This document shows, piece by piece, positions 7,382-51,105 of a stretch of DNA of 64,000 nt. Below the pieces are notes generated by a model that saw only the letters and a program-made list of their open reading frames with translations, was not told where the DNA came from and made no database searches. This stretch comes from Mesorhizobium loti. Lineage in GTDB: Bacteria > Pseudomonadota > Alphaproteobacteria > Rhizobiales > Rhizobiaceae. Numbering within the stretch: position 1 is the stretch's first letter; every line of letters begins with the position of its first letter. The translations under genes were made by a program, and so were the position numbers. The stretch is taken from the NCBI GenBank assembly GCA_002356515.1, contig AP017605.1, forward strand, positions 1,426,001 through 1,490,000, in the 5' to 3' direction.

Positions 7382-7423
7382 AGGCCCTCCCGAGGCACTT
7401 TGACGACCAGAGATATCGAGTGG

Positions 7424-7454
7424 CCGGCGCCGTGAGAGAATCCCACGGCGCCGG
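7424..7454 (-). terminator. Intercistronic hairpin after the binding-protein gene
   Basis: CCGGCGCCGTG (7424-7434) pairs perfectly with CACGGCGCCGG (7444-7454) around a nine-base loop. There is no U-tract, so it is more likely an RNA-stabilising or partially attenuating hairpin that keeps binding-protein mRNA in excess over the membrane components. Confidence 0.65.
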
Positions 7455-7463
7455 GAGTGCAGT

Positions 7464-8591
7464 CTACTGGTCCGCCTTGGTCTGGCCCATGATTTCCTGC
7501 GCGGTGAAATTGATGCCGCAGGTCGGGAAGGAATTGCCGACGAAGAAATTGTCGGACTGGTCGGGGAAGAAATCCTGACCGGCCTTGAAGTTCGGATCCT
7601 CGACGATCGCCAGCGGCAGCTTAACCGACTGCGGGACGACATTGCCTTCAAGCGCTGCGATCGCCGTCTTGATGGCAACCGCCACCTGTGCCGGGCCGGT
7701 ACCGGCTGACGAGCATTTCAGCCCGTCGGCCGCGTGGGCCGCGCAGAACTTGCGGAAGCCGTTCTCGGTCTCCCCGCCGAACGGCACGAACGGATGCTTG
7801 GCATCGATCATCGCCTGCACGATGCCGGTGTCACCGCCCTGTCCCGTGACGCCGTCGAAGGGGCCGTTGGTGGCGATCGCGTCGGCCGAAGCCTTTTGCG
7901 CAACGCCGTCATCCCACTTGCCGACGACCTCGGTGACCGCCCATTTCTTGCCGGAGGCGTCGAGCACTTCATGGATGCCGTTGTGGCGGTCGGTGTCGAC
8001 CGATGTCCCGGCAACGCCGCGCACTTCAAGCACCTTGCCGCCATTCGGCACATGCGAGACCAACCATTTGCCCCACAGTTCGCCAAGACCCTTCTGGTCG
8101 ACGTTGACGTTGATGGCGTCCTTGGTGTCGAGAATGTTATCGAAGGCAACCAGCACGACGCCGGCTTCCTTGGCGCGCTTGATCACCGGCCCGAAGGCGG
8201 TCGGGTTCTGCGCGTTGACGACGATCGCGTCGTAGCCGGAATCAATGAAGTTGTTGATCGCCGAAATCTGCGCCGGCACGTCTTCGCCGGTCGAGACGAC
8301 CTTGAATTCCTTCAGCTTCGCCGCGACATCCTTCTGCGCCGCATAGGCCTTCGCGGTCTGCACCATCTGGATACGCCAGGTGTTTGCGATATAGCCGTTG
8401 GCGAGCGCAATGCGGTATGGGCCGGCCTTCTTGGGAAACTTGAAGAACAGTGTGTCCGCAGCCCAGGGTGCGAAGCAATCCGGCTCGGCAGCCGGGCCCT
8501 TGACGATTTCAGGGCCTGCGGCAATCGCCGACGAGCTCAACATAACGAATGCAGTGGCGGCAACGATGCCACCGACAAGTGACTTGATCAT
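7464..8591 (-). CDS. CUT2 sugar ABC transporter substrate-binding protein
   Basis: A 375-residue periplasmic protein with a signal peptide (about 1-24, ending SSAIAAG). The body follows the two-lobed RbsB-like fold: AKLKEFKVVSTGEDVPAQISA, SGYDAIVVNAQNPTAFGPVI, GVAGTSVDTDRHNGI and DGVTGQGGDTGIVQAM mark the strands that line the sugar pocket. Cysteine pairs near residues 39 and 280-295 may form disulfides. GGGAGG lies just upstream of the ATG. It is the first gene of an operon with ATPase, two permeases and gluconokinase, so a sugar acid or its precursor is a reasonable ligand guess, not established. Confidence 0.9.
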   Translation of the reverse strand: MIKSLVGGIVAATAFVMLSSSAIAAGPEIVKGPAAEPDCFAPWAADTLFFKFPKKAGPYRIALANGYIANTWRIQMVQTAKAYAAQKDVAAKLKEFKVVSTGEDVPAQISAINNFIDSGYDAIVVNAQNPTAFGPVIKRAKEAGVVLVAFDNILDTKDAINVNVDQKGLGELWGKWLVSHVPNGGKVLEVRGVAGTSVDTDRHNGIHEVLDASGKKWAVTEVVGKWDDGVAQKASADAIATNGPFDGVTGQGGDTGIVQAMIDAKHPFVPFGGETENGFRKFCAAHAADGLKCSSAGTGPAQVAVAIKTAIAALEGNVVPQSVKLPLAIVEDPNFKAGQDFFPDQSDNFFVGNSFPTCGINFTAQEIMGQTKADQ

Positions 8592-8754
8592 CGATAATCC
8601 TCCCAGTTGCAGTTCTGATTTGTCGGTTCAGTTTTTGTGGAATTTTCGCGCTTCTGGGCGGCTCCTCCGCCTTGCCCAGTCACGCCTGCCAGGTGCCGAA
8701 GACCTCCGCGCCCCCTCCCTTTGCCGTCCCCTTCAGCCGGTGAAATTTATCATA

Positions 8755-8801
8755 TTATCCATAATAAACAAGCGTGAGCTGTTGCTTATGTATAATAAAC
8801 A
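8755..8801 (-). repeat. Direct repeat in an AT-rich promoter region
   Basis: Between 8592 and 8898 (307 bp, no gene) an AT-rich island stands out. TTATCCATAATAAACA (8755-8770) recurs as TTATGTATAATAAACA (8786-8801), 14 of 16 matches, starts 31 bp apart or about three helical turns. It lies upstream of the binding-protein gene at 8591 and could be tandem regulator sites or stacked promoter elements. Confidence 0.5.
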
Positions 8802-8838
8802 GACCCAGCGCCTAAGTGGCGATACTCGTTCAGGGAAA

Positions 8839-8854
8839 ATGGTAGCGCTACCAT
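8839..8854. promoter_or_regulatory. LacI-family operator, perfect palindrome
   Basis: ATGGTAGCGCTACCAT is a perfect 16-bp palindrome with the central CG typical of LacI/GntR-family operators. It lies between the regulator gene (stop codon side, 8899) and the CUT2 operon start (8591), so the regulator at 8899-9933 is the natural candidate to bind it. A close variant lies at 43313-43328. Confidence 0.75.
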
Positions 8855-8898
8855 GACGTGGTGTAAAGCGCCATTTGCAGGCCTTCTCGAAAGCCTGT

Positions 8899-14718: not shown

Positions 14719-15501
14719 TTACCGCCGCCGGCTTCCAATCCCCTCATCGGTGTCGGCGAGCAGCTTGTGCACGGCGTTGCGCGCGGCCGCCGGCCGCTGC
14801 AGGCGGATGTTCTTCTCGATCGCCTCGTGCAGCTTCTGCGCCCGGTTCTGGTCGCCGACCTGGCGTGTCGTGAAGACGAAGAGATGGTCGAGTGCGGACT
14901 CGATCAGCACGCCGAGCGGCACCAGAAGGTCGTTGCCCGAGGCCCGCAGGATGGCGAGGTGAAAGCGGGTGTCGGCGCGGATGCGTTCCGGCAGGTTCGC
15001 CGCCTCGCCCATCTCGCGGCAGGCGAGGCTGATCTCGGCCATCTGCTCGTCGCTGCGCCGCATGGCGGCAAAGGCGGAGGCTTCCGGTTCGATGATGTGG
15101 CGGAATTCCTGCACGGTGCGCAGGAAGGCTTCGCGGTCGGGTGCGGTCGCGTACCAGGCAAGGACATCACGGTCGAGCAGGTTCCAGCGCTCCTTCGGCT
15201 CGACCCAGCTGCCGATCTTGGGGCGTGATGCCAAAAGGCTCTTGGCCATCAGCATCTTGATCGCCTCGCGCACCGCCGAGCGGCTGACGTTGAAGGTTTC
15301 GGCCCATTTGGCCTCATTGGGCAGGATGCTGCCGGGCGGATAGTCGCCGCGCACGATCCGCAGACCAATCTCGCTGGCGAGCGAGACATGAACGCTGGAC
15401 CCGGGAAAGTGTACCGCATCCGCCCTGCGCACGACCGCCGGATCGCGGTTGGCTTGCGCCTTGGCCCGGCTGGCTTGTTTCTTTGCCTTTTCGTCCGGCA
15501 T
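14719..15501 (-). CDS. FadR-subfamily GntR regulator, copy B
   Basis: A 260-residue FadR-type repressor nearly identical to copy A outside its N-terminal 38 residues. Winged helix at about 40-107 (LASEIGLRIVRGDYPPG, NVSRSAVREAIKMLMAK) and an FCD domain to residue 250. The ATG at 15501 is preceded by TGGAACGTGA. It lies between the hydroxyacid dehydrogenase and the CUT2 binding-protein gene. The two copies are in the same orientation about 2.9 kb apart and could recombine, deleting the dehydrogenase genes between them. Divergence is concentrated in the effector domain tail, so the two may respond to different ligands at a shared operator. Confidence 0.9.
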   Translation of the reverse strand: MPDEKAKKQASRAKAQANRDPAVVRRADAVHFPGSSVHVSLASEIGLRIVRGDYPPGSILPNEAKWAETFNVSRSAVREAIKMLMAKSLLASRPKIGSWVEPKERWNLLDRDVLAWYATAPDREAFLRTVQEFRHIIEPEASAFAAMRRSDEQMAEISLACREMGEAANLPERIRADTRFHLAILRASGNDLLVPLGVLIESALDHLFVFTTRQVGDQNRAQKLHEAIEKNIRLQRPAAARNAVHKLLADTDEGIGSRRR

Positions 15502-15644
15502 TCACGTTCCAGTAGGTCGGCCGTCTGTCACCCGGATTGATCCGGAGCTGCACGGCGCCGATCCCGTTGCCGAAATCCAAACTACGGACGCATCAAGGCC
15601 GGAGCCCGTTGCCCCTCGCCACAGCGTCTTGTCCAGGAATTCAA

Positions 15645-15676
15645 AGGGAAGGGGCGCCCGCTGCCGAGCGCCCCGA
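15645..15676 (-). terminator. Terminator-like hairpin after the CUT2 binding-protein gene
   Basis: GGGGCGC (15651-15657) pairs with GCGCCCC (15668-15674). Read on the minus strand it follows the stop codon at 15687 and is followed by TTCCCTTTG, a weak U-rich tract. Confidence 0.6.
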
Positions 15677-15686
15677 AATCATCAGC

Positions 15687-16676
15687 TTACTTCTGGATGC
15701 AGGTGTCGACCGTGTCCTTGGTGCATTCGTCGAGACCGGTGAACACCGGATCGGCGACCTTGGTGCCCTTGATGAGATCGATCATCACCGAAGGCGCCTT
15801 GTAGCCCATTTCGAAGGGCCGCTGGCCGACCAGCGCGGTGACCAGGCCATCCCTGGCGATCGCTACTTCGTCGCCGATCGTGTCGGCGGCGCCGATGACG
15901 AAGTCGTTCTTGGCTATCCGGTCCTTGAGCGGCCCGAACAGATCGCGATAGGGCTGCGGCGCGCCGAACAGCGGCCAGCCGCCCATGATGCCGAAGGCAT
16001 CGAGCTTGGGATTGGCGGCGAGGATGTCGGTCATCGCCTGCACGCCCTTGGCACCGTCATCATTGGTGAACACCGGACAGCCGGCAACTTCCGTCCAGCC
16101 GCCTTCACCGGCAAGTGCAGCGAGGCCTTCCTTGCCCGACAGTGCGTCGCGCATGCCCTGGGCACGGCGCAGGATGTTGTCGGCCGCGGGATTGCCCTCA
16201 ATGGTGCAGATCGTGCCGCCATTCGGCTTGCCCTTCTTGATATACTCGCCGATCTTGTGACCCATCAGATAGTTGTCGGTGCCGAGATAGGTTTTGCGAA
16301 GTGCCGCATCTTCCTTGCTGAGGTCGGCGTCGACGGTCATGATCGGGATCGTCGGATTGGCGGTCTTGATCGTCTGCGCGATCAGCGGCGCGTTGGACGG
16401 TGAAATCGCCATCGCCACCGTGTCGGCCTTGCTCAGCATATCCTGGACGATCTGTGCCTCGCCGGCCTCATCGGAAGTCGACGCCGGACCGGTGTAGAAG
16501 CACTCATATTCCGAGCTGGCGTTTTCCTTGTTCCATTTCTCGCAGCCCTGATGAATGGCTTCGAAGAATGGATTGTCGAGACCTTTCACCACGATGACGA
16601 GCTGCTTCTTGGCCAAAGCCGGCCCGGCGCCCAGCGCCATGGCGGCGACGGCGGCGAGCAATACTGTTTTCCTCAT
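15687..16676 (-). CDS. CUT2 sugar ABC transporter substrate-binding protein
   Basis: A 329-residue periplasmic protein with signal peptide (about 1-22, ending GPALA). KKQLVIVVKGLDNPFFEAIH is the first strand of an RbsB-like fold; SNAPLIAQTIKTANPTIPI, MTVDADL and GTDNYLMGHKIGEYI follow in order. Cysteines at about 45, 56, 163 and 209 suggest disulfides. The ATG at 16676 is chosen over an upstream in-frame start because of the GGGAGGACTGAC ribosome site and the signal peptide. It is transcribed away from its ATPase and permease genes (17118-18915), an unusual arrangement, with a shared operator region between. Confidence 0.9.
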   Translation of the reverse strand: MRKTVLLAAVAAMALGAGPALAKKQLVIVVKGLDNPFFEAIHQGCEKWNKENASSEYECFYTGPASTSDEAGEAQIVQDMLSKADTVAMAISPSNAPLIAQTIKTANPTIPIMTVDADLSKEDAALRKTYLGTDNYLMGHKIGEYIKKGKPNGGTICTIEGNPAADNILRRAQGMRDALSGKEGLAALAGEGGWTEVAGCPVFTNDDGAKGVQAMTDILAANPKLDAFGIMGGWPLFGAPQPYRDLFGPLKDRIAKNDFVIGAADTIGDEVAIARDGLVTALVGQRPFEMGYKAPSVMIDLIKGTKVADPVFTGLDECTKDTVDTCIQK

Positions 16677-37274: not shown

Positions 37275-38329
37275 CAAAAAAAACCTCCCGAAGCGAGGTC
37301 GACAGTCAGCACGCAGTCGCCACCCTTGGAAGCAACGAGCAGCCGGCCGCCCTTTTCGGCGACGCTGCAGATGCCGTGGCGCGTGCCGTTGGCGCGGCTG
37401 TGCAGGCTGAACTGTGGCTGCATCTTTGCGTCGAGCCTGACCACCAATCCGTAGGACCGGCTCGGCGACCACGGCTTGTGGATGCCCATGGTGCGGATGC
37501 CGCCGCATTGCAGCGGTTCCAAAAAACTGCGGTTGGAGGCGAGCGCCGGCGCGATCCAATAGGTCGCCGGCACCTGGTCGATCATGTCCTGGCGGTAGTG
37601 CGTCTCCTGCAGCACGAATTCGATCAGCCGGTTGCGCGGCGCGAACAGCGCCAGCCACGCCCCGCCATCCGTGGCCGGCGACAGCCGCGCGGGATAGCCG
37701 GGCAGATGCGTCAGCACCGTGGCGCGATTGCCGTCTGCGCCGAAGCGCACCAATTGATGGCGCCAGCTTTCGCTCACCAGAACGCCCTCGCCTGCCGGGT
37801 GGAGACCGTTGGGGAACGCGATGTCGCCGGCAACTTTCTGGAATCCGATTGCTCCCGGGCCACATCGCCACAGCGAACCGGACGCGCCCTTCTTCATCAA
37901 GTCGGCGGCCCATTGCGATGGCGCGTGCTCAGCCGAACCATTGGCCAGCCAGAGCGTGCCATCATCGGCATAGGCAAGTGCCGTGATGCAACGCACATCC
38001 GTCGGCAGCGAAATTTCCTTGCCGGATATCAGCAGCTTGCCGCTTTCGAGCGCCACAGTCAGGTCATCCGATGGCGACAGTGCCAGCGCCGTGATGGGCG
38101 ACGGAAAGGTCTCGATCACCTTGGGTTCGCTTCCCGCAGCAAGCGCATAGACGGCGTTGCCGCTTGAGGCGAGCAGCCCGCTTCCTGAAACAACCAGATT
38201 GTCCGGCTCAGTCAGCTCGGCAAACGCCGGCGCGTCATCGAGTCGCGTGTTGGGCCGGAAAGCGCCGTCGAGCGGCGGGATGGTGACCGCCTTGCCGCGA
38301 AACATGTCCAGGATCGGATCGAGGATCAT
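37274..38329 (-). CDS. SMP-30/strictosidine-synthase-like beta-propeller protein
   Basis: A 351-residue protein with the repeated strand pattern of six-bladed beta-propellers of the SMP-30/gluconolactonase/strictosidine synthase superfamily: ITALAYADDGTLWLANGS, GDIAFPNGLHPAGEGVLVSESWRH (split here as GDIAFPNGLHP and VLVSESWRH) and LPGYPARLSPATDGGAWLALFA. No signal peptide is present, so it is cytoplasmic. It overlaps both neighbours by a few bases (ATGA with the fusion permease upstream, TGATG with the ATPase downstream). It is probably a sugar lactonase acting on the imported compound; the metal ligands cannot be assigned firmly. Confidence 0.8.
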   Translation of the reverse strand: MILDPILDMFRGKAVTIPPLDGAFRPNTRLDDAPAFAELTEPDNLVVSGSGLLASSGNAVYALAAGSEPKVIETFPSPITALALSPSDDLTVALESGKLLISGKEISLPTDVRCITALAYADDGTLWLANGSAEHAPSQWAADLMKKGASGSLWRCGPGAIGFQKVAGDIAFPNGLHPAGEGVLVSESWRHQLVRFGADGNRATVLTHLPGYPARLSPATDGGAWLALFAPRNRLIEFVLQETHYRQDMIDQVPATYWIAPALASNRSFLEPLQCGGIRTMGIHKPWSPSRSYGLVVRLDAKMQPQFSLHSRANGTRHGICSVAEKGGRLLVASKGGDCVLTVDLASGGFF

Positions 38330-40449
38330 GATTTCGCTCCCCAATAGGAAGCCGGGCTGGTCCAGGTCGGGTTGGCACTTGCTATCTTGTAGCGGCCGAT
38401 GCGGTTGTTCAGGATGCCGCCGACGAAGAGATATCCCTTGTGCTCGCGCATCGAGGTGACCATAGGATGCGCGCCGCCGGAGAGGTCGCCCATCGCCTCG
38501 ACAATGCCGCCCTTCTCCGTGAATTTCACCACACCGCCGGTGTTGATGTTGGGAAACAGCCACTCGTCTTGCGGCAGCCGGCGCGTCATGCGCTTGCGCA
38601 TGTCGGGGTGGCGCAGCGAGAGATCGAAGCTCGGTGTGCGCATGCCGAGCCACGCCATCCAGTAATTGCCGTCCGACGCCCGGTTGATGTTGTCGGGATA
38701 GCCCGGCATGTCGCGGATGACGCATTCGGCGGTGCCGGCCTTCGATCCCTCCAGCCAGTAGCGGTGCACCCGGCAGGCCCAGCTTTCGGCGAAGAACAGC
38801 GACTTGCCATCATGCGCCATGCACACGCCGTTGGTGTAGCGATAGCCGTCGAGCAGCGTCTTGGTCGAGCCGTCCTTGGGATCATAGACCAGCAGCCGGC
38901 CGGTGGCTCGGTTCTCGATCGAATCCAGCGCCCAATCGTGGGCGTCATAGCGCTTGGTCGAATCCGTGAAATAGATGCGCCCGTCCGGCGCGATGTCGCA
39001 GTCATTGGGGTCGCCCAGCCGCGCATCGTCGACGATCGAGGTCCAGGAGCGCGACGTCTCCGCCGACAGACGCTTCACCTCGCGCTCCGGCGAGACGGAG
39101 TAGAGCCCCATGGCGCCGACGCAGCTGATCAGATTGCCCGATTTGTCAAAGGCCAGACCCAGCGGGAAGCCGCCGATGTGGGCGAACACTTCCGATTTCA
39201 CATAATCCGGCGCGAAGAAACGCACGATCTCGCCATGGCGCGTGCCGCAATAAAGATGGTCGTCGCGGTCGAGGATGACGTCCTCGGGTCCTTCCAGCTC
39301 GCCGAGTCCGATATGGTCGGCAGCCGACAGCCGGTTGTCGAGTGCGTAAGGCGTGCCGGAGCCCGGCACAGCCGACTGTGTCTCGCCCATCTTGAGATAG
39401 ACCGGCGCGACATAGACCTCGTTCAGCACCTTGTGGCGGTTCTTCAGCCAGCGAATGTCGATGGTCACCGCCACCGCCAGCATGATGCCGAGCACCATCT
39501 GATTGGTGCCGGTGCCGTAGCCCAGCCGGATCAGCCCGTTGGTCATGGTCAAGACGATGATGGCGCCCATCAGCCCCTTGATCACCGAGCCGCGCCCGCC
39601 GCCGAGGCTGACGCCACCAACCACCGCTGCCGTCAGCGCCATGATTTCCAGGTTGAGGCCCGTGCCCGGCCCTGCCCCGCTCAGCCGGCAAGCGATGAGG
39701 AAGCCGCCGATCGAAGCGCAGAAGCCGGAGAAGACATAGGTCATGAACACGGTACGGCGCACGCGGATGCCGGCATTGTGCGCCGAGCGCCGGGAACCGC
39801 CGACCGCCAGCACATGCCATCCCGGCCGCGAACGCGTCAGCGCGATATGGGTGACGATGGCGAGGATAATCGCCAACCACACCGAGACCGACAGGCCCCA
39901 GAAGGTGCTGTCACCGATGAAATCCAACACATCCGAGGTGGCTGTCGATAGCTGCACATCGGCGGCATAGGTGGTGACGAGGATATCGAACAGCGCCCGG
40001 CCGAAGATGAAGGTGACCAGCGTGGTGAGAAAGGCGCGCAAGCGCAAGTAGCCGACGAGATAGCCATTGATGGCGCCGAAGATCAGGCCGGTGGCGAGCG
40101 AGGCGGCTAGCGCCAGCCAGATCGACTGTTCGAGGATGAAGAAGACATAGACGGCGGAGAAGCAGGACAGCGCGAAGATCGAGCCGACCGACAGATCGAT
40201 GCCGCCGCCCAGCATCACCACCGTCATGCCGGTGACGACCATGGAGAATTCGCCGAGCTGGCGGGTCGATTCCTGCAGCGCGTTCAGCTTGAAGAAGCCG
40301 GGAATGACCGAGCCGAAAGTCGCCAATGTCACCACCAGCGCCAGGAACGGAATGGCGTTGTCGGTCCAGCGTTTGGTCAGGATCTCGCCGACCAGATGGT
40401 CGGGCACGAGATTGTAGCGCCATGACTGGAGGCGTTCACGAAGGGACAT
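38326..40449 (-). CDS. CUT2 permease fused to SMP-30/strictosidine-synthase-like domain
   Basis: A 707-residue two-part protein in one uninterrupted frame. Residues about 1-345 are a complete RbsC-type permease (LGGGIDLSVGSIFALSCFSA near 82 and GGVSLGGGRGSVIKGLMGA near 285). After a linker (about 345-385) comes a six-bladed propeller to the end: GPEDVILDRDDHLYCGTRHGE, GDPNDCDIAPDGRIYFTDS, YTNGVCMAHDGKSLFFAES and PGYPDNINRASDGNYWMAW are its blades. The final membrane segment puts the propeller in the cytoplasm at the channel exit. It is followed by a second, separate propeller protein in the same operon. Confidence 0.92.
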   Translation of the reverse strand: MSLRERLQSWRYNLVPDHLVGEILTKRWTDNAIPFLALVVTLATFGSVIPGFFKLNALQESTRQLGEFSMVVTGMTVVMLGGGIDLSVGSIFALSCFSAVYVFFILEQSIWLALAASLATGLIFGAINGYLVGYLRLRAFLTTLVTFIFGRALFDILVTTYAADVQLSTATSDVLDFIGDSTFWGLSVSVWLAIILAIVTHIALTRSRPGWHVLAVGGSRRSAHNAGIRVRRTVFMTYVFSGFCASIGGFLIACRLSGAGPGTGLNLEIMALTAAVVGGVSLGGGRGSVIKGLMGAIIVLTMTNGLIRLGYGTGTNQMVLGIMLAVAVTIDIRWLKNRHKVLNEVYVAPVYLKMGETQSAVPGSGTPYALDNRLSAADHIGLGELEGPEDVILDRDDHLYCGTRHGEIVRFFAPDYVKSEVFAHIGGFPLGLAFDKSGNLISCVGAMGLYSVSPEREVKRLSAETSRSWTSIVDDARLGDPNDCDIAPDGRIYFTDSTKRYDAHDWALDSIENRATGRLLVYDPKDGSTKTLLDGYRYTNGVCMAHDGKSLFFAESWACRVHRYWLEGSKAGTAECVIRDMPGYPDNINRASDGNYWMAWLGMRTPSFDLSLRHPDMRKRMTRRLPQDEWLFPNINTGGVVKFTEKGGIVEAMGDLSGGAHPMVTSMREHKGYLFVGGILNNRIGRYKIASANPTWTSPASYWGAKS

Positions 40450-43567: not shown

Positions 43568-45001
43568 TCAGCTCCCCGGCGCGTGACCGGAAACCTCGGC
43601 ACCGGCGCCGGGCGGCAGCACCAGAAAACGCAGCGCCGCGACCAGCCCGATGGCGCCGATGACGAAAAAGGCGATTCGAAAATCGACGAGGTCGAGCGCA
43701 GGCTGGGCTCTTGCGATCTGCGACAGATTGAGGATCGCCGCCGCCACGGCAACGCCGAACAGCATCGCCACCTGCTGCAGCATCGAGGATAGCGTCGCCG
43801 CCGAACTGCGCTGCGCCGCATCGATATCGGCGAAGGCCAGCGTGTTGAGCGCGGTAAACTGCATCGAGCGCGACAGGCCGGCGATCAGCATCAGCGCCAC
43901 GACCAGCGCCTGCGGTGTTTGCGGCGAGATCGCCCCGCAAGCCATGATCGAGGCCGAAGCGATGATGCCGTTGACCACCATCACCGAGCGGAACCCGAAC
44001 CGCCGCAGCGTTGGCGTCGTCACCGTCTTCATGCCGAGATTGCCGAGGAAATAGGCCAGGATCATCAGGCCGGCATCGACGGGCGAGAGGCCGAAACCGA
44101 CCTGGAACAAAAGCGGCAGCAGGAACGGCGTGGCGTTGATCGCCACCCGGAAGATGGTGCCGGCGGCAAGTGTCGAGATGGCGAAGGTCAGCACCTTGAA
44201 CGAGGAAAGGTCGAGCAGCGGATGCGGAGCGCGCCGGAGATGCCGCACCGCCAGCCAGCCGACAACGATGCCCGCCGCGATCAGCGCCACGGTCGGCAGC
44301 ATGCCATCCTCGGGATGCGCGATGCGCTCGAGGCCGTAGAGCAGGCAGGCGAGCCCGAGCGAGGTCAGGAAAAACCCCGGCCAGTCCAACGGCTTGGGAT
44401 CAGCCTCGCGATCGCCCGGGATGAAGCGGGCGACCAGCGCCAGCCCGATCAGCCCAAGCGGGATGTTGATGAAGAAATTCCAGTGCCAGGACAGATAGGT
44501 GGTGATGAAGCCGCCGAGCACCGGCCCGACGACGGGCGCGAACAATGCCGGCCATGTGATCAGCGCGGTGGCGTTTAGCAGTTCGGATTTCGAGGCGTTG
44601 CGCAGGACGAGAATGCGTCCGACCGGCGTCATCAGCGCGCTGCCCAGCCCCTGCACGGCGCGCGCGGCGACGAATTGGGTCAAATTCCCGGAGAAGCCGC
44701 AGGCGAGCGAGGCCAGCGTGAACAGCGCGATCGCCACGAGGAAGATGTTGCGCGCGCCGAAGCGGTCGGCGAGCCAGCCCGAAAGCGGCACGAACACCGC
44801 CATGGTCAGCATATAGACGGTGATGCCGATGCTCATCGCCACCGCCGGCACGCCGAAGGACTGGCCCATCTGCGGCAGCGAGGTCGAGATGATCGTCGAA
44901 TCCAGCAGCTGCATGAAGAAGGCGATGGCCACGATCAGTGCCACGCGCCGCGCATTGGTGGCCGTTTCGGGTAAGGCTTCGGTGTCGGGAATGGCAGTCA
45001 T
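43568..45001 (-). CDS. MFS transporter, DHA2 (EmrB/QacA) drug:H+ antiporter type
   Basis: A 477-residue protein with about fourteen membrane segments. Motif A LADRFGARNIFLVAI follows segment two, and motif C, WPALFAPVVGPVLGGFITTYLSW (shortened: APVVGPVLGGF), in segment five marks drug-proton antiporters. LDSTIISTSLPQMG in segment one is the 14-TM family motif D1. The ATG at 45001 is chosen because it gives a normal short cytoplasmic leader. Divergent from the ornithine-cyclodeaminase-like gene, with about 120 bp between. Confidence 0.9.
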   Translation of the reverse strand: MTAIPDTEALPETATNARRVALIVAIAFFMQLLDSTIISTSLPQMGQSFGVPAVAMSIGITVYMLTMAVFVPLSGWLADRFGARNIFLVAIALFTLASLACGFSGNLTQFVAARAVQGLGSALMTPVGRILVLRNASKSELLNATALITWPALFAPVVGPVLGGFITTYLSWHWNFFINIPLGLIGLALVARFIPGDREADPKPLDWPGFFLTSLGLACLLYGLERIAHPEDGMLPTVALIAAGIVVGWLAVRHLRRAPHPLLDLSSFKVLTFAISTLAAGTIFRVAINATPFLLPLLFQVGFGLSPVDAGLMILAYFLGNLGMKTVTTPTLRRFGFRSVMVVNGIIASASIMACGAISPQTPQALVVALMLIAGLSRSMQFTALNTLAFADIDAAQRSSAATLSSMLQQVAMLFGVAVAAAILNLSQIARAQPALDLVDFRIAFFVIGAIGLVAALRFLVLPPGAGAEVSGHAPGS

Positions 45002-45121
45002 GTCGGTCTGGTTTGAACAGCATTTAGCCGGCAGCGTCCAGACACAGCGCAACAAACTTTCGTGTCACGCCGCGGCCTGCTATGGGATGAGCGGGGTGAC
45101 CGAGGAAAGTACGCGCATAAA

Positions 45122-46123
45122 ATGAAGCCCATCTATATCGATTATCTCAATGCCCTCGACATCGAAGCGCTGGATATGACCGATGGCGAAATCATCGCCG
45201 CTGTCGAGGCTGGTCTTGTCGCCCAGGGCAAAGGCCAGACGGTGATCGAGCCGCGCGTTCACCTCGAACCGGATCCGTCCTTCCACGGCCATTTCAACGT
45301 GCTGCGCGGCTATGTGGCGCCGCTCGACACGGCGGGCGTGAAAATCGTCGGTGACTATGTCGACAACTATCTGCACGGCCTGCCCTCGGAATTCGGCATC
45401 CTCAATCTGTTCGACCCGCGCACCGGCACACCGCGCGCCATTCTCGACGCCACCGTCATCACCGATATGCGCACCGGCGCCGTCACCGCCATCGGCGCCA
45501 AGCATCTGGCAAGGAAGAATTCCAAGGTGCTGGCCCATATCGGCGCGCGCGGAACCGCCTATTGGAATGTCCGGCTGCTCGACCATCTCTTCGATTTCGA
45601 AGAGATCCGCGTCCATTCGCGCCGCCCGGAAAGCCGCGACGGCTTTGCCGCCAAGCTCTCCGCTGATCTCGGCAAGAAGGTTACGGCAGTGGCCGACTGG
45701 GAGAGCTGCGTCAAGGGCGCCGACATCGTCGTCGAGGCCTCGCGTCTGCCGGAGCCGCAGCCGCTGCTCAAGACCGAATGGATCAAGCCCGGCGCGCTGG
45801 TCATGCCCTATGGCACGATGAGCGCGGTGGAGCTGTCGCTGACCGACATCATGCAGAAGATGGTCGTCGACGACTGGGGCCAGTGCAAGGGCGGCAAGTT
45901 CGGCTCGCTGCGCGCCCATGTCGAGACCGGCCGGTTGAGCGAAACGACGCTGCATGCCGAACTCGGCCAGATCGCCGCCGGTCTCAGGCCGGGCAGACAG
46001 AGCGACGACGAGACCATCCTGTTCTGGCATCGCGGCCTATCACTGTCCGACATTGCGTTGGGCAAGGCGATGCTGGCCAAGGCAGGCGAAAAGGGCATCG
46101 GCCAGAGGCTGCGTTTCGCATGA
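45122..46123 (+). CDS. Ornithine cyclodeaminase/mu-crystallin family protein
   Basis: A 333-residue protein of the OCD/mu-crystallin family, whose members are NAD(P)-dependent ornithine cyclodeaminases, alanine dehydrogenases, or imino-acid reductases. The N-terminal substrate domain has GVKIVGDYVDNYLHGLPS and ATVITDMRTGAVTAIGAKHLA; the dinucleotide motif is HIGARGTAYWNV (G-A-R-G-T-A in place of the usual G-A-G-x-Q-A). The stop codon overlaps the next start as ATGA, so it is translationally coupled to the ammonia-lyase homologue, and the two likely act in one pathway on an amino or imino acid. Confidence 0.85.
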   Translation: MKPIYIDYLNALDIEALDMTDGEIIAAVEAGLVAQGKGQTVIEPRVHLEPDPSFHGHFNVLRGYVAPLDTAGVKIVGDYVDNYLHGLPSEFGILNLFDPRTGTPRAILDATVITDMRTGAVTAIGAKHLARKNSKVLAHIGARGTAYWNVRLLDHLFDFEEIRVHSRRPESRDGFAAKLSADLGKKVTAVADWESCVKGADIVVEASRLPEPQPLLKTEWIKPGALVMPYGTMSAVELSLTDIMQKMVVDDWGQCKGGKFGSLRAHVETGRLSETTLHAELGQIAAGLRPGRQSDDETILFWHRGLSLSDIALGKAMLAKAGEKGIGQRLRFA

Positions 46124-47667
46124 GCGCGCTCGTCCTTACCGGAGCCGGTGTCAGTGTCAGCGATGTCGCTGCTGTGGCCCGCGAAACGCGCAAGGTGGAG
46201 ATCGGACCCGAAATCATCGGCAGGCTGGACAAGGCGCGAAAGGTGCTCGACCAGGCCGCCGCCTCCGGTCAGCAGATCTACGGCCTCAACACCGGGCTTG
46301 GCGCCAATCTCGGCACCTCAGTCGAAGGCGACGCCAGCGCCTTCCAACGTCAGTTGCTTGAGGGCCGCAGCGGAGCGGTCGGCGAAACCCTGCCGGTCGA
46401 GACCGTGCGGGCCACCATGGTCGCCCGCGCCTCGATGCTGTCGGCCGGCGGCTCCGGCCTGTCGCCCGCCGTGTTCACTGCTCTGGTCGATGCGCTCAAT
46501 GCCGGCGTCCATCCGGTGATGCCTTCGCTCGGCTCGATCGGCGCCGGCGACCTCGTGCTGATGACCGCGCTTGCCCGTCTGCTGATCGGCGAAGGCGAAG
46601 CCGATTACCAGGGCCGCCGCATGCCGGCGGCCAAGGCGCTGATGATGGCCCGCCTCGCCCCGATCAGCCTGGCGCCGAAAGATGGACTGTCCCTGATCAA
46701 CGCCTCGGCGGTCTCCTCCGGCAGCGGCGCCCTTGCGATAGCGGATGCGCTGTCGGCGCTGGCCCAGCAGCAGCAGGCCGGCGCGCTGACCATGGAAGGC
46801 TTTGGCGCCAACCGCACCATCCTCGATCCGCGCCTGCAGATGGCGCGGCCGGCCGCCGGACAGCAGGAAGCGGCGAAAGCCTTGCACGACCTTCTCGCCC
46901 GCGACGAGATGCCGGCGCCCACCACCTTGCAGGACCCGCTGTCGATCCGCTGCATGCCGTCGATCCACGGCGCGCTGATCGAGGCGATCGGTCAGGCAAA
47001 ACGCGCCGTCGAGATCGAACTCAACGCGGCCGCCGACAACCCGCTGGTGCTCGGTGACGACGAATTGGTGATGTCGACCGGCAACTTCCACACGGCGGCA
47101 CTTTCGCTTGCTTTCGAGACGCTCAGCCTGGCGATCGCGCAATGCGCCGCCGCGAGCGTCGCCCGCTTCATCCAGCTCACCGGTTCGGGCCGCAATGGGC
47201 TGAGCAAATATCTGTCGCCCATCGGTGGCGCATCGGCCGGTTTCGTGCCGCTGCAGAAGACGGCAACATCGATCCTGGCCGCCATCCGCCACAAGGCCAA
47301 TCCGGTGATGCTCGATTTTCTCCCGGTTTCGGAAGGCGTCGAGGACCACGCGACCCAGTCGCTCCTCGCCGTCTCGAAATGCGCCGGGATGATCGCGCTG
47401 TGGCGGCGGCTGATCGCCTTCGAGCTGATGGCCGCCGCCCAGGCCGTCGACCTGCGTGAAGGGTTGACGCTGGCACCACGCACCGGCGCGATCTATGCAG
47501 CAGTGCGCGCGCATGTATCGATGCTGAAGGACGACCGGCCGCTGGGAGCCGACGCCGAGGTGCTTCACGCCATGCTCGCCGACGGAGCGTGGCGAGGCGC
47601 TTCGACAGTCGACAAAGAAACCGAAATAGTCAGCTCTTTGCGCCTACCCTTTTCAGGAACAGACTGA
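46120..47667 (+). CDS. HAL/PAL-family ammonia-lyase homologue lacking the MIO serine
   Basis: A 515-residue protein with the full-length histidine/phenylalanine ammonia-lyase fold. Y54 (IYGLNTGLG), N (SLINASA), Q and R of LQDPLSIRC, GNFH and EDH blocks are retained. However, the tripeptide that cyclises to the MIO cofactor, Ala-Ser-Gly at 142-144 in Pseudomonas HutH, is not present: residues 138-145 read GSIGAGDL, one residue shorter, without the serine. The position of HutH His83 is Arg (LEGRSG) and that of Tyr280 is Leu (QDPLS). It therefore probably cannot make a MIO group and may catalyse something else or be non-enzymatic. It overlaps the convergent PanB-like gene by 38 bp. Confidence 0.85.
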   Translation: MSALVLTGAGVSVSDVAAVARETRKVEIGPEIIGRLDKARKVLDQAAASGQQIYGLNTGLGANLGTSVEGDASAFQRQLLEGRSGAVGETLPVETVRATMVARASMLSAGGSGLSPAVFTALVDALNAGVHPVMPSLGSIGAGDLVLMTALARLLIGEGEADYQGRRMPAAKALMMARLAPISLAPKDGLSLINASAVSSGSGALAIADALSALAQQQQAGALTMEGFGANRTILDPRLQMARPAAGQQEAAKALHDLLARDEMPAPTTLQDPLSIRCMPSIHGALIEAIGQAKRAVEIELNAAADNPLVLGDDELVMSTGNFHTAALSLAFETLSLAIAQCAAASVARFIQLTGSGRNGLSKYLSPIGGASAGFVPLQKTATSILAAIRHKANPVMLDFLPVSEGVEDHATQSLLAVSKCAGMIALWRRLIAFELMAAAQAVDLREGLTLAPRTGAIYAAVRAHVSMLKDDRPLGADAEVLHAMLADGAWRGASTVDKETEIVSSLRLPFSGTD

Positions 47668-48433
47668 GCTCGGCCGGCTCCATGTGCACAACGTGCCTGT
47701 CCTCGGGATAGGCGCCGCTGTTGACGTCGGCGACATATTCCGAGAAAGCCGCCACCCGCTCCGCCTGCAGCCGGTCATACTCGGCGGCGAAGTTGCGGTA
47801 GACCTTGGAGTGGCGCGGCATGTGGCCCCGGTTCTGGCCAAGGATGTCGTCGGCGAACAGATATTGCGCGTCGCAGCCGGTGCCCGCCCCCATCGACAGC
47901 ATGATCAGCGAGGTCCGCTCCGAAATTGCCTTGGCGACCTCGACCGGCACCACCTCGATCTCGGCGCCGACGGCGCCCGCAGCTTCCAGCTGCTTCACCG
48001 CCTCGAAAACCTCCAAGGCGGTGTCGGCAGTCTTGCCGACCGCCTTGAAGCCGCCGGTCCAGGTGGCGCGGGAGGGAATGAGGCCGACATGGCCGATGAC
48101 GGGGATGGCATCGTCCGCCATGCGCTTGATCGTCGCATAACCGGCGCTGCAATAGACCGCGTCGGCGCTTGCCTTGTAGAGCCGGAAGGCCCAGCGCACG
48201 AAATCATCCGCCGTGCCGATCTCGAAGAAGTTTTCGCCCGGCATGGTGAACAGGCTGGGCGCGGCATCGCGATACTGAGGGTTGAGCACCAGTTCGGGCG
48301 GCACCGAGACGATGTCGACCCCTGCCCGTTCGGCGGCCTCCGCCTCGTCCAGGTTGAGCACGCGCAGCATGGTAAGCTGGCGCTTGCCCTTCATCGCGCG
48401 CAGATCGGCGACGGTCGGTCTCTTTCGGCTCAT
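47630..48433 (-). CDS. Ketopantoate hydroxymethyltransferase (PanB) family protein
   Basis: A 267-residue TIM-barrel protein of the PanB/PEP-mutase superfamily. PTVADLRAMKGKRQLTMLRV, IPVIGHVGLIPS and a metal-binding aspartate/glutamate region (AVGAEIEVVPVEVAKAISE) follow the PanB order; PanB transfers a hydroxymethyl group to 2-oxoisovalerate in pantothenate synthesis. The usual K-R-G-R-K-x-S-M-V-T start is divergent, and the genetic context (no panC, at the end of a catabolic run) suggests a related aldol reaction rather than pantothenate synthesis. AGGGGACG precedes the ATG. Confidence 0.78.
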   Translation of the reverse strand: MSRKRPTVADLRAMKGKRQLTMLRVLNLDEAEAAERAGVDIVSVPPELVLNPQYRDAAPSLFTMPGENFFEIGTADDFVRWAFRLYKASADAVYCSAGYATIKRMADDAIPVIGHVGLIPSRATWTGGFKAVGKTADTALEVFEAVKQLEAAGAVGAEIEVVPVEVAKAISERTSLIMLSMGAGTGCDAQYLFADDILGQNRGHMPRHSKVYRNFAAEYDRLQAERVAAFSEYVADVNSGAYPEDRHVVHMEPAELSLFLKRVGAKS

Positions 48434-48471
48434 TAAAACGTCCCCTCTGTGATGCTGGATCGGTTGCCGCG

Positions 48472-48783
48472 TCAGATCTGGATCATCACCTTACCGGCCT
48501 CGACCTTCACCGGATAGGTCGCGAGATTGACGCAGACTGGCGCGCCCTTGGCCTGGCCGGTCTTGTAGTTGAAGCGGCCATTGTGCTTGGGGCATTCGAT
48601 GATGTCGTCCATCACCAGCCCGTCGGCCAGATGCGCCTTCTCATGCGTGCAATAGCCGTCTGTGGCGAAGAACTCGTCATCGGGCGAGCGGTAGACCGCG
48701 AAAGTCCGGCCGCCATGGTCGAAGCGGATGACGTCCTCTTCCTCCACATCGTCCACCGCGCACGCTTCAACCCAATCGGCCAT
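48472..48783 (-). CDS. Rieske [2Fe-2S] ferredoxin, MocE-like
   Basis: A 103-residue Rieske ferredoxin. The cluster ligands are C-T-H (GYCTHEKAH, near 45) and C-P-K-H (ECPKHNGRF, near 64). MocE of Sinorhizobium meliloti is such a ferredoxin and works with the MocD oxygenase in demethylating the rhizopine 3-O-methyl-scyllo-inosamine. The gene follows the MocD-like gene by 14 bp, supporting an electron-donor role for it. No ferredoxin reductase (MocF) is in the window. Confidence 0.9.
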   Translation of the reverse strand: MADWVEACAVDDVEEEDVIRFDHGGRTFAVYRSPDDEFFATDGYCTHEKAHLADGLVMDDIIECPKHNGRFNYKTGQAKGAPVCVNLATYPVKVEAGKVMIQI

Positions 48784-48797
48784 ATCGGTCTCCTCAG

Positions 48798-49880
48798 CTA
48801 TTCGGCCGCAGCCGACATATCGACCTCGTGGAACTCGCCGCGATAGGGCCTGGCCGTCGGCGGCAATTCGCGCTTGAGATAAAAATCCTCGTATTTCAGC
48901 TGCCGCAGCAGCACCGGCCAGACCTCGCGATAGGCATGCCACATGGACGGGTTCGGCTCCGGCAGGTCGTGCTTGATCAGCTCGTGCAGCCTGGGCAGCG
49001 CGTGATACGGCACCATCGGGAACATGTGGTGTTCGACATGGTAGTTCATGTTCCAGTAGATGAACCGGCTGATCGGGTTCATGTAGACCGTGCGGGTGTT
49101 GAGCCGGTGGTCGACCACATTGTCGGCCAGCCCGATATGCTGCAGCAAGCCGGTCGTCACCATGTGCCAGGTGCCGTAAAGGCGCGGCAGGCCGATCAGC
49201 ACCAGCGGGATCCATGATCCCAGCGCGACCGCGATAGCGATCGTGACGACATAGATGGCGACGTGCCAGCGGGCGGCGATCACCGCCTTGTGCTGTTCCA
49301 TTTCCGGGATGTAGCTCTTCTCCTCGTCCGACAGCGTGCCAAAGGCCTGGCGTACCAGCGTCGGCAGCGAATAGCGGAAGTCGAGAATGCCGGTGAAGGC
49401 CAGTGCCGCCTTCAACAGGTCGGGCGGGCGCATGACCGCGATCTCGGCGTCGCGGCCGACGATGATGGTGTCGGTGTGGTGGCGAGCATGGCTCCAGCGC
49501 CACTGCACGGGATTGCGCATCAGCATGAAGGAGGCAATGTGGTAGACGACATCGTTCATCCAGCGCGTGCGGAAAGCCGTGCCGTGGCCGCATTCGTGCC
49601 AGCGCGAGTCGCTCGACGAGCCGTAGAGCACGCCATAGACGAACAGGAACGGCACCACCCACCACGTGCCCCAGAACCAGACGATGCCGGCGGCCGAACC
49701 GACAATGACAGCTATCCAGATGATGGTGTCGCGGATCGCCGGGCCGTCGGAGCGCTGCATCAGCTCCTTCATCGCCTTGCGCGGCACGTCGGTGTGGTAC
49801 CACTCAGCCGAGGCCAGGCCAGTCTCGATCGCGGCCCGCGTGCTCTCGCCGACCAGGCTATAGTCGCGTTTTTTGCCCAT
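48798..49880 (-). CDS. Fatty-acid-desaturase-family di-iron protein, MocD-like
   Basis: A 360-residue membrane di-iron protein. Three histidine boxes are present: HECGH near 97, HARHH near 130 and HVEHH near 280, with four membrane segments between. MocD of rhizopine catabolism belongs to this family and hydroxylates or demethylates an O-methylated inositol amine using the MocE ferredoxin. The ATG at 49880 has GGAGG upstream. Its coupling to a MocE-like gene makes an oxygenase role on a sugar- or inositol-derived compound more likely than membrane lipid desaturation. Confidence 0.88.
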   Translation of the reverse strand: MGKKRDYSLVGESTRAAIETGLASAEWYHTDVPRKAMKELMQRSDGPAIRDTIIWIAVIVGSAAGIVWFWGTWWVVPFLFVYGVLYGSSSDSRWHECGHGTAFRTRWMNDVVYHIASFMLMRNPVQWRWSHARHHTDTIIVGRDAEIAVMRPPDLLKAALAFTGILDFRYSLPTLVRQAFGTLSDEEKSYIPEMEQHKAVIAARWHVAIYVVTIAIAVALGSWIPLVLIGLPRLYGTWHMVTTGLLQHIGLADNVVDHRLNTRTVYMNPISRFIYWNMNYHVEHHMFPMVPYHALPRLHELIKHDLPEPNPSMWHAYREVWPVLLRQLKYEDFYLKRELPPTARPYRGEFHEVDMSAAAE

Positions 49881-49929
49881 CACACCGACCTCCGGTTTCC
49901 GGCCCGCCAGCCGGAGCATTCCTGTCGCA

Positions 49930-51105
49930 TCATGCCCCCAATCTCGGAAAATTTCCCGACGGCCTGGGATAATCCTGCTCCGGCTGCCTGGCGATCGCGC
50001 CGATCCTGCCTTCCGCCGCCGCAATCTCCCCGGCGCCATCGAGGACACGAAACACCGCATCGTAGGCCCGGGCTTCGCCATGCTCCAGCCAGATCATCTC
50101 GCCGCGGTCACGCGCGGCGAGATCGCCGAGCACATGATGGGTCGAGGGCTCTATGCCCAGCGCATACTGCCCGGCCTGGAAATTCTGCCACTGATAGGCG
50201 CAGGGCAGTTGATCCTTGCGCGTCACCACTTCGAAGCCGAGGCCGAGCCGGTCGTTGACCACTGCCACCGGCACTTGGCCTTTATCGTCGGCGGCCATCT
50301 CGTGCTGCCAGACCTGCTCGCTGAACCCCAGCTGCGGCGCCGGCGCCGTGCGGTAGCCGACCTTCTGCGCCTCATAGCGCTCGCCGGCATGGCCGGCCCA
50401 CACCACGTCGCGGATCGGCGCCAGATAGCGCGAGCCCTGGTCGAGCAAGGGATGGCTGACATTGATGTGATAGAAATACATATGCGGCGTACGGTTGAAG
50501 CCGTGATTGACGACACGGTCGGAGAGCCGGATCTCGTTGCCGCCGACATCGGCCTCGATGCGACGGATGAGATGCAGATCTTCGCCGAACACCGCCGCCT
50601 GCTGGACGATGCCTTCGGCCCACAGCACGCAGCGGTCGCCATCCCAGCGCTCGCCGTAGCCGGTCAGCCGCGCCGGGATGGTGCCGACGCGGCCGTGCAG
50701 CGCATGGGTGACGGTCTTCTTGCTGGGGTAGTTGTAGTTTTCGGCAGGCACCTCTTCGCGGCCCAATATGTGGTCGAGGCCGCAGGTGACGAGCAGACCG
50801 GAAAAGGAGCGCGCCCAGGCGAGCCCGCTCTCCCCCTCATAGTCGTGCAGGCCGGGATGGCGAAAACCGCTCGGCGAATGCCAGCCGATCGCCTGGCCCT
50901 TGAAGTCACAGTCAGAGATATCAAGCGCCCGGTCGACCAGCGCGGTGAAGCGCAGGCCGGAGCCGGTGCGGAACTCCAGCATGCGGATGCCGCGTTCTAC
51001 GCCATCGCCAAGCGTCATCAACCGCACGCCGGCGAATTGAGACAGCATGCCGGAGCGCTCCGCCACTTGCCGTCGCGAAAGCGTCTTGCCGTAAAGCTCT
51101 ACCAT
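49930..51105 (-). CDS. Aldose 1-epimerase family protein (DUF4432)
   Basis: A 391-residue protein of the galactose-mutarotase-like superfamily, DUF4432 type. GLRFTALVDRALDISDCDFKG, THALHGRVGTIPAR (split THALHGRVG and TIPAR) and PHMYFYHINVSHPLLDQGS correspond to the strands and the catalytic histidines; the conserved glutamate is likely in the C-terminal ALGIEPSTHH block. Such proteins interconvert anomers or epimers of unusual sugars. It lies between the CUT2 ATPase and the MocD-like gene. GAAGGGCG precedes the ATG. Confidence 0.82.
   Translation of the reverse strand: MVELYGKTLSRRQVAERSGMLSQFAGVRLMTLGDGVERGIRMLEFRTGSGLRFTALVDRALDISDCDFKGQAIGWHSPSGFRHPGLHDYEGESGLAWARSFSGLLVTCGLDHILGREEVPAENYNYPSKKTVTHALHGRVGTIPARLTGYGERWDGDRCVLWAEGIVQQAAVFGEDLHLIRRIEADVGGNEIRLSDRVVNHGFNRTPHMYFYHINVSHPLLDQGSRYLAPIRDVVWAGHAGERYEAQKVGYRTAPAPQLGFSEQVWQHEMAADDKGQVPVAVVNDRLGLGFEVVTRKDQLPCAYQWQNFQAGQYALGIEPSTHHVLGDLAARDRGEMIWLEHGEARAYDAVFRVLDGAGEIAAAEGRIGAIARQPEQDYPRPSGNFPRLGA

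Follow-up and report, generated by a model that had tools for sequence, protein, structure and literature searches.

Described lyases and the locus under study

In histidine, phenylalanine and tyrosine ammonia-lyases (HAL, PAL and TAL, respectively), the electrophile 4-methylideneimidazole-5-one (MIO) adds the amine or instead the ring of the substrate, and thereby makes ammonia leave. Ergothionase splits trimethylamine from ergothioneine, and does so with no MIO cofactor. PMC13405746 presents ergothionase as a characterised lyase without MIO, and as confined to few genera, though with the proviso that divergent homologues might escape detection. An MIO-free lyase built on the HAL fold is thus already known. 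Considered here is a further such protein, encoded within a 64,000-nucleotide stretch of Mesorhizobium loti DNA (assembly GCA_002356515.1, contig AP017605.1, positions 1,426,001 to 1,490,000 of the forward strand), which as a whole is referred to as the window. Its gene is coupled to one for a protein of the ornithine cyclodeaminase (OCD)/mu-crystallin family. As judged by sequence, the loss of MIO from this lyase is strongly supported, and the protein is a member of the ergothionase branch. Our preferred reading, to which we give a probability of about 0.5, is that it would be an MIO-independent lyase that most likely removes trimethylamine from ergothioneine sulfonate, with the OCD-family partner turning the product towards urocanate.

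The best match of the lyase in the PDB, by a narrow margin and at approximately 30% identity, is ergothionase of Treponema denticola (6s7j; also 6s7q). The two share the HAL fold, an identically placed deletion of the MIO serine, Leu at the position of HutH Tyr280, a lysine (ergothionase Lys383, here Lys380), and retained Tyr53, Arg280 and Glu411 (ergothionase numbering), and they fall within the same clade. They differ at position 83 (His in ergothionase, Arg here), in a loop that is NRGVG in ergothionase but NTGLG here, and in GEGDI versus GAGDL; the coupled OCD gene is a further difference. That is, the active-site surroundings of ergothionase (His83 together with the NRGVG loop) are absent from the M. 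loti protein, whereas a Polaromonas lyase has both, as does 6s7j itself. The Arg83 branch with its coupled OCD gene therefore is, at the level of sequence, distinct from ergothionase in defined ways. Another ergothionase, BAM63550 of Burkholderia sp. HME13, lies outside the present comparison.

With HutH of Pseudomonas putida (1b8f, and 1gkj, the latter a Y280F mutant), the M. loti lyase has in common the fold, the PF00221 domain, and the equivalents of Tyr53, Arg283, Glu414 and Phe329. It differs from HutH in lacking the MIO serine, in Arg83 for His83, Leu for Tyr280 and Lys380 for Val386, and in its NCBIfam score, which is below the hutH cut-off. We take His83 and Met382 of HutH to be ring-pocket residues, i.e., to bind the ring, while Arg283 and Glu414, with the Tyr53 equivalents, presumably serve acid/base chemistry and carboxylate binding.

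A lyase lacking the MIO-forming serine

Residues 138 to 145 of the lyase read GSIGAGDL where P. putida HutH reads GSVGASGDL. The Ala-Ser-Gly tripeptide of MIO-dependent ammonia-lyases is therefore missing, with the serine deleted rather than substituted, just as the first-pass annotation of this DNA had proposed. Alignment likewise bears out that annotation in placing Arg and Leu at the positions of HutH His83 and Tyr280 (Arg83 and Leu274, respectively), and in describing the other conserved blocks as intact (QDP at 271-273, RC at 277-278, GNF at 321-323 and EDH at 408-410). The PF00221 fold is readily recognised by profile search (435.5 bits), with scores falling under the curated HutH cut-offs (367.8 versus 539.15 bits for TIGR01225; 382.8 versus 524 bits for PRK09367).

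The serine is absent as well from every one of the 120 homologues listed among 3961 matches, the closest of which, named Mesorhizobium erdmanii, is 93% identical. That is, 120 of these 121 proteins, the query included, display GS[IV]G[AD]GDL, and the remaining one, P0104, has ASIGAGDL. Against six Mesorhizobium orthologues, the ratio of nonsynonymous to synonymous substitution rates (dN/dS) is 0.126-0.197. Because the serine is missing throughout this set and dN/dS is so low, the deletion is, on sequence grounds, genuine, i.e., neither a sequencing error nor a mark of a pseudogene, and an error whose correction would restore Ala-Ser-Gly is excluded.

For wider comparison, class A was defined as every PF00221 protein with neither GS[VA]GY nor A[SC]G, open reading frames (ORFs) of fewer than 400 residues having been dropped. 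Tyr54, Arg277 and Glu408 are present in all 122 class A proteins. Lysine stands at the position of Lys380 in 119 of the 122 versus in none of 45 canonical proteins, and some role for it may be presumed. At the position of HutH Tyr280, 117 of the 122 have Leu, while the canonical 45 consist of 41 with Tyr, 3 with Leu and 1 with Phe. Both His83 and Arg83 types occur within class A. In a tree from which the motif columns were removed, a single clade unites the query with ergothionase and 34 further proteins that bear the deletion (SH-aLRT 99, from a quick method with no bootstrap, the test being of 36 rows on one side of a branch). Alignment and tree thus yield the clade sharing Gly-Ala-Gly-Asp that the first-pass annotation had suggested looking for, with the one-residue deletion extending to a larger clade that includes ergothionase.

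Two readings under which the deletion would mean less can be weighed here. Given that the fold and several catalytic residues are retained, the enzyme might be an MIO-dependent ammonia-lyase after all, its cofactor formed from a shifted loop; this we consider close to negligible, as the serine, which is the source of the methylidene carbon, is lacking from the query and from each of its 120 listed homologues, Tyr280 is lost, and ergothionase, with the same deletion, does without MIO (PMC13405746). The same genome possesses a canonical HutH, as would suit a pseudoenzyme or a decaying hutH copy. That reading nevertheless is very improbable given purifying selection, orthologues found across Mesorhizobium, three catalytic residues kept without exception across class A, and coupling to a conserved partner gene. 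The folded protein thus would be expected to lack MIO. Of the earlier suggestion of a non-MIO enzyme with perhaps a new reaction, the first part is therefore upheld by the clade-wide deletion, the selection and the retained Tyr54, Arg277 and Glu408, whereas its novelty is weakened by ergothionase as described in PMC13405746.

The OCD-family partner

The OCD and lyase genes overlap at ATGA, as first annotated, and the annotated OCD and lyase genes of loci L096-L098 overlap by the same four bases. The partner contains the PF02423 domain (193.1 bits) that it shares with the OCD/mu-crystallin family generally (archaeal alanine dehydrogenase 1omo, which is its best PDB match, along with ketimine reductase, SbnB and EutC). 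It matches 13 NCBIfam models, however, without reaching the cut-off of any, the best being TIGR02371 at 185.1 versus 409.15 bits, and no functionally named subfamily (alanine dehydrogenase, EutC, SbnB, BhcD or OCD) fits it.

The partner is better conserved than the lyase. Across 18 loci compared with the window, OCD proteins are 65-83% identical whereas lyases are 33-60% identical, and where lyase identity is just 33-45% that of the OCD proteins still is 65-79%. Conservation of the OCD protein across divergent lyases suggests a single, shared intermediate. Co-occurrence points as well to an association. Of 27 genomes picked for their class A lyase, 7 of these 27 being Mesorhizobium, 23 have the OCD subfamily (E <= 1e-80; in one of the 23, G671, as a fragment), and all four without it are of a single genus. 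An even draw from the class finds the subfamily in 19 of 289 genomes, these being the M. loti genome itself, all 6 of the other genomes whose opened loci include a class A lyase, and 12 of the remaining 282; in that draw the 30 best places were made into loci and classed, with weaker places counted as not class A. A draw from the order finds it in 16 of 249 genomes and, outside of Mesorhizobium, in 8 of 13 with class A versus 2 of 229 without. Fisher values are 2.5e-8 and 2e-10 for the class and order draws, respectively, with genomes that are not independent of one another, and with lyase cut-offs (1e-60, 1e-75) at which members may be missed. The idea that the OCD-like partner matters to the lyase, implicit in the first-pass annotation, is strongly supported by these counts and by OCD conservation.

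The pair is adjacent or clustered in several lineages of the tree. The OCD gene is found on another contig, or distantly, in G087, G071, G277, G261, G034, G594 and G604, the lyases of the first three lying near contig ends such that adjacency cannot be read there.

Gene contexts in relatives

The lyase clade is represented in rhizobia, Azospirillum (in a record carrying no annotation), Rhodobacterales, Burkholderiales and Halomonadaceae. In plasmid pRL12 of Rhizobium johnstonii the order is LysR, a putative sulfate exporter, CoA transferase, short-chain dehydrogenase/reductase (SDR), MaoC, hutC and the lyase, then a glycine-betaine binding protein, OCD, a PhnD-like gene and ABC genes. Among 80 named loci, 43 have OCD and 11 have the full pRL12 set with exporter. 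Martelella has hutC, lyase, betaine-binding protein, OCD, PhnD-like and ABC genes, and Polaromonas has YeiH, lyase, a tripartite tricarboxylate transporter (TTT) binding protein, OCD and PhnD-like genes. In Salinicola corii there are urocanase, a BCCT transporter, a lyase of the GS[VA]GY type (class B), a hutI homologue, a further ORF, the class A lyase, OpuAC, OCD, PhnD-like and an ABC permease; the counterpart of that further ORF in its sister S. peritrichatus appears, from a reading of the sequence, to start like an N-formylglutamate deformylase. Paracoccus saliphilus possesses an ergothionase-like lyase (cut at the end of the locus), hutU, hutG, canonical hutH, hutI and formimidoylglutamate deiminase, followed by a putative sulfate exporter, OCD, PhnD-like, hutC and a TRAP transporter. 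The YeiH-type exporters of relatives score under the NCBIfam cut-off, and we take exporters of this type to be linked to sulfite.

Hut genes, HutC regulators and quaternary-amine transporters thus surround relatives of the lyase, and for that reason an imidazole betaine would be favoured as substrate. Less firmly, sulfur in the substrate would be favoured due to YeiH-type exporters and flavin mononucleotide (FMN) monooxygenases. The latter are seen in the query's closest kin in the plasmid collection (Rhizobium acidisoli, Sinorhizobium B11 and Rhizobium CC-CFT758), each of which has a betaine-type ABC system, two FMN monooxygenases, OCD and lyase with the same four-base overlap, followed in the first two by a PhnD-like gene.

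These contexts bear on two further readings. First, the lyase might eliminate some other good leaving group, or a secondary amine, from an opine- or aminopolycarboxylate-like compound, with OCD as an opine or imine dehydrogenase and relatives' NtaA/DmoA-type monooxygenases acting on that same compound. Monooxygenases of that family do occur in all three of the nearest plasmid-collection clusters, and the closest OCD-family structures are imine and amino-acid dehydrogenases; hut genes and HutC in other clusters nonetheless point to an imidazole product, and OpuAC-type binding proteins to quaternary amines, such that we hold this to be decidedly unlikely. Second, there might be trimethylamine removal without MIO but from a different aromatic betaine (hercynine, hypaphorine or some other plant betaine), with OCD catalysing an unrelated step, e.g., imine reduction. 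Rhizobia encounter plant betaines, betaine transporters recur near relatives, class A is of mixed type at position 83, and lyases outside of Mesorhizobium, at only 33-60% identity to the query, could differ in substrate. Hercynine, though, would give urocanate directly, leaving the conserved OCD and exporter unexplained, and the far higher identity of the OCD proteins favours one shared intermediate. This reading is unlikely, if worth keeping in view.

In Rhizobium rhizogenes, too, OCD and PhnD-like genes lie near a class A lyase (L109, L177), the L109-type lyase being approximately 42% identical to the query. A 2022 paper by Yan, Huang and Zhang in ACS Catal. reportedly, to go by its title, concerns an ergothioneine-sulfonate catabolic pathway of Agrobacterium radiobacter, and the chemistry in that title is that proposed here for the query. 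Taxonomy lists A. radiobacter K84 under R. rhizogenes, with A. radiobacter proper a separate species. That paper may already cover the pRL12-type branch, which R. rhizogenes carries.

Certain details of relatives may be noted as well. The ergothionase-like lyases of Polaromonas (L099, coding sequence 7279-8898) and Paracoccus (L260:1-1204) have N-termini resembling signal peptides, which suggests that elimination is periplasmic and that the product is then taken up. In L072 the PhnD-like protein appears to start with no obvious signal peptide, and it may for that reason be a cytosolic binding protein or an enzyme. MttB-family trimethylamine methyltransferase genes adjoin class A lyases in L065, L077, L081, L083 and L084, and in L239 and L241 genes for a dipeptide-type ABC transporter, OCD and a PhnD-like protein come after the MttB gene.

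Proposed reaction and what weighs against it

By analogy with these relatives, the lyase probably is part of a small pathway for ergothioneine-like molecules. Its substrate would be an aromatic alpha-betaine, most likely one with an imidazole ring, from which acid/base chemistry on the HAL fold would release an amine that is pre-activated and most likely is trimethylamine. A trimethylammonium group should be unable to form an N-adduct with MIO and should already be a good leaving group, and the MIO serine would be dispensable, and hence lost, for these reasons; trimethylamine is, that is, the more likely leaving group than ammonia. Arg83, standing at the ring-selectivity position in place of ring-binding His83, is suggestive of a ring that carries negative charge. 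It would bind an acidic group there, such that the likeliest substrate would be ergothioneine sulfonate or a closely related compound. The product would be a 2-sulfo-urocanate-like acid, to which the OCD-family dehydrogenase would add hydride with loss of sulfite to give urocanate, with hut enzymes completing the breakdown. This two-step route in full, i.e., an Arg83 MIO-free lyase stripping trimethylamine and an OCD enzyme then reductively desulfonating the imidazole ring, releasing sulfite, is put forward only tentatively, and its odds are less than even. To our knowledge no member of the OCD/mu-crystallin family is known for reductive desulfonation of an aromatic ring.

Several observations count against the preferred reading, that is, of an ergothioneine sulfonate lyase with an OCD-family partner. 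His83 is found in ergothionase and also in the Polaromonas and Paracoccus members, of which the latter two have OCD and the exporter. Among the Arg83 lyases of genus g396, OCD is absent in four of five genomes and is encoded elsewhere in the remaining one (G604). The OCD subfamily is present with no detected class A lyase in the 12 of 282 genomes given above (contexts L222, L224 and L227), with no lyase in Terrarubrum, or alone. It is present also beside canonical MIO-type HALs in L100 and, as a partial match, in L263, and therefore is not lyase-specific. In L225, too, it lies close to two PF00221 genes of an unusual kind. That pair (L225:13442-14983 and 14980-16506, from G086) consists of overlapping genes with a third kind of non-MIO loop (GMGMDGE/ALGMDGE) and Thr aligned to Glu414, the OCD-subfamily gene being approximately 3 kb away.

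The window itself is also less than accommodating. Neighbours of the pair are sugar-type ABC and sugar-enzyme-like genes. A tblastn search at 1e-5 found in the 64-kb window none of the relatives' PhnD-like, OpuAC, permease, YeiH, CoA-transferase or SDR proteins, nor their MaoC, luciferase-like monooxygenase (LLM), hutU, hutI, MttB or glutaminase; the lone accessory-type match is to HutC, over 77 residues at 30% (15160-15390). Within the genome, the best PhnD-like match is 37% identical, contains an in-frame TGA and lies at a distance of 444 kb; for YeiH the best match is 34%. The substrate proposed for the pair in the window would thus be a transfer from the contexts of relatives.

The window and paralogous genes

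Positions of the features discussed are collected in Table 1.

Table 1. Features in and around the OCD-lyase pair, in window coordinates
Feature	Position	Strand	Basis or remark
DHA2-type MFS transporter, divergent from OCD gene	43568..45055	-	Profile and context comparison
Ornithine cyclodeaminase/mu-crystallin family gene	45122..46123	+	ORF open from GTG 45062; first Met codon 45122
ATGA overlap of OCD and lyase genes	46120..46123	+	Lyase ATG at 46120; OCD stop TGA 46121-46123
MIO-less PF00221 lyase, 515 aa	46120..47667	+	Translation, no internal stops; relatives annotated hutH or HAL/PAL/TAL family
Tyr54 codon (HutH Tyr53), retained across all three aligned classes	46279..46281	+	Alignment
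Arg83 codon (HutH His83 position)	46366..46368	+	Alignment
GSIGA-GDL, residues 138-145, MIO loop minus serine codon	46531..46554	+	Alignment, DNA
Leu274 codon (HutH Tyr280 position)	46939..46941	+	Alignment
Arg277 codon (HutH Arg283), retained	46948..46950	+	Alignment
Lys380 codon, clade-specific lysine (ergothionase Lys383, HutH Val386)	47257..47259	+	Alignment
Glu408 codon (HutH Glu414), retained	47341..47343	+	Alignment
PanB-like protein, convergent, overlapping lyase 3' end; possible associate	47630..48433	-	Profile match, context

The PanB-like protein (122.3 bits, cut-off 272) is the first of three encoded at 47630-50081 on the minus strand, the others being a small Rieske-type ferredoxin (at about 48472-48783, as read from its CxH/CxxH motifs) and a fatty-acid-desaturase-like protein. 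In three Mesorhizobium contexts (L073-L075) the trio remains together next to the lyase, and a PanB-like homologue of 36% identity adjoins the OCD-lyase pair of Rhodobacteraceae M382. On the same strand, at 38326-40449, is a 707-residue ORF whose first half reads as a sugar ABC permease and whose second half seems to resemble an SMP-30/gluconolactonase-type domain.

The genome holds four PF00221 genes, that is, the query, L001, L004 and L002. L001 is canonical HutH (GSVGASGDL), approximately 1 kb from hutU, and it is therefore improbable that the query serves as histidine ammonia-lyase in the cell. The others are further MIO-less paralogues. L004 (G000:C1:6722221-6723594) has GAADL along with His83 and is, with L141-L170, of a class A type that is widespread in Mesorhizobium and has no OCD in the stretches fetched; genes for a flavin adenine dinucleotide (FAD) oxidoreductase, a class III aminotransferase and an aldehyde dehydrogenase are nearby in M. 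loti. L002 (G000:C1:112620-113984; GSAGY) is of the second MIO-less type, in which three residues are missing after GS[VA]GY and Leu replaces Tyr280. L057, L109:1-1220 and L139:4883-6514 are additional examples, and five of six full rows (L109 being cut) have His83 together with Met at the HutH Met382 position. In Salinicola this type lies between the BCCT betaine transporter and the hutI homologue, in L057 beside canonical HutH, and in L109 it adjoins an ABC system of no identified type. It is a candidate histidine-betaine (hercynine) lyase.

Implications

Among the titles and abstract openings searched, no report was found of an OCD partner to such lyases or of an MIO-less clade beyond ergothionase, PMC8066212, the sole paper with both 'ornithine cyclodeaminase' and 'ergothioneine', being excluded. 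Nor, in a search using the Polaromonas lyase, was any protein named ergothionase among the 120 matches listed. Databases label the Arg83 branch as histidine ammonia-lyase or as HAL/PAL/TAL family. Many class A proteins thus publicly carry the name of histidine ammonia-lyase yet, because of the deletion, should be unable to form the cofactor by which that family is defined. Whatever their exact substrate, they are candidates for the divergent ergothionase homologues that are allowed for in PMC13405746.

Ergothionase has a large sister clade that possesses a conserved partner gene of its own, and this clade offers as well a directly testable map of environmental bacteria that may degrade ergothioneine-type betaines. 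Should the OCD step be as proposed, then it would represent a new reaction for the OCD/mu-crystallin family and, should the two-step route hold, the clade would be a widespread module that has been mislabelled as 'hutH'.

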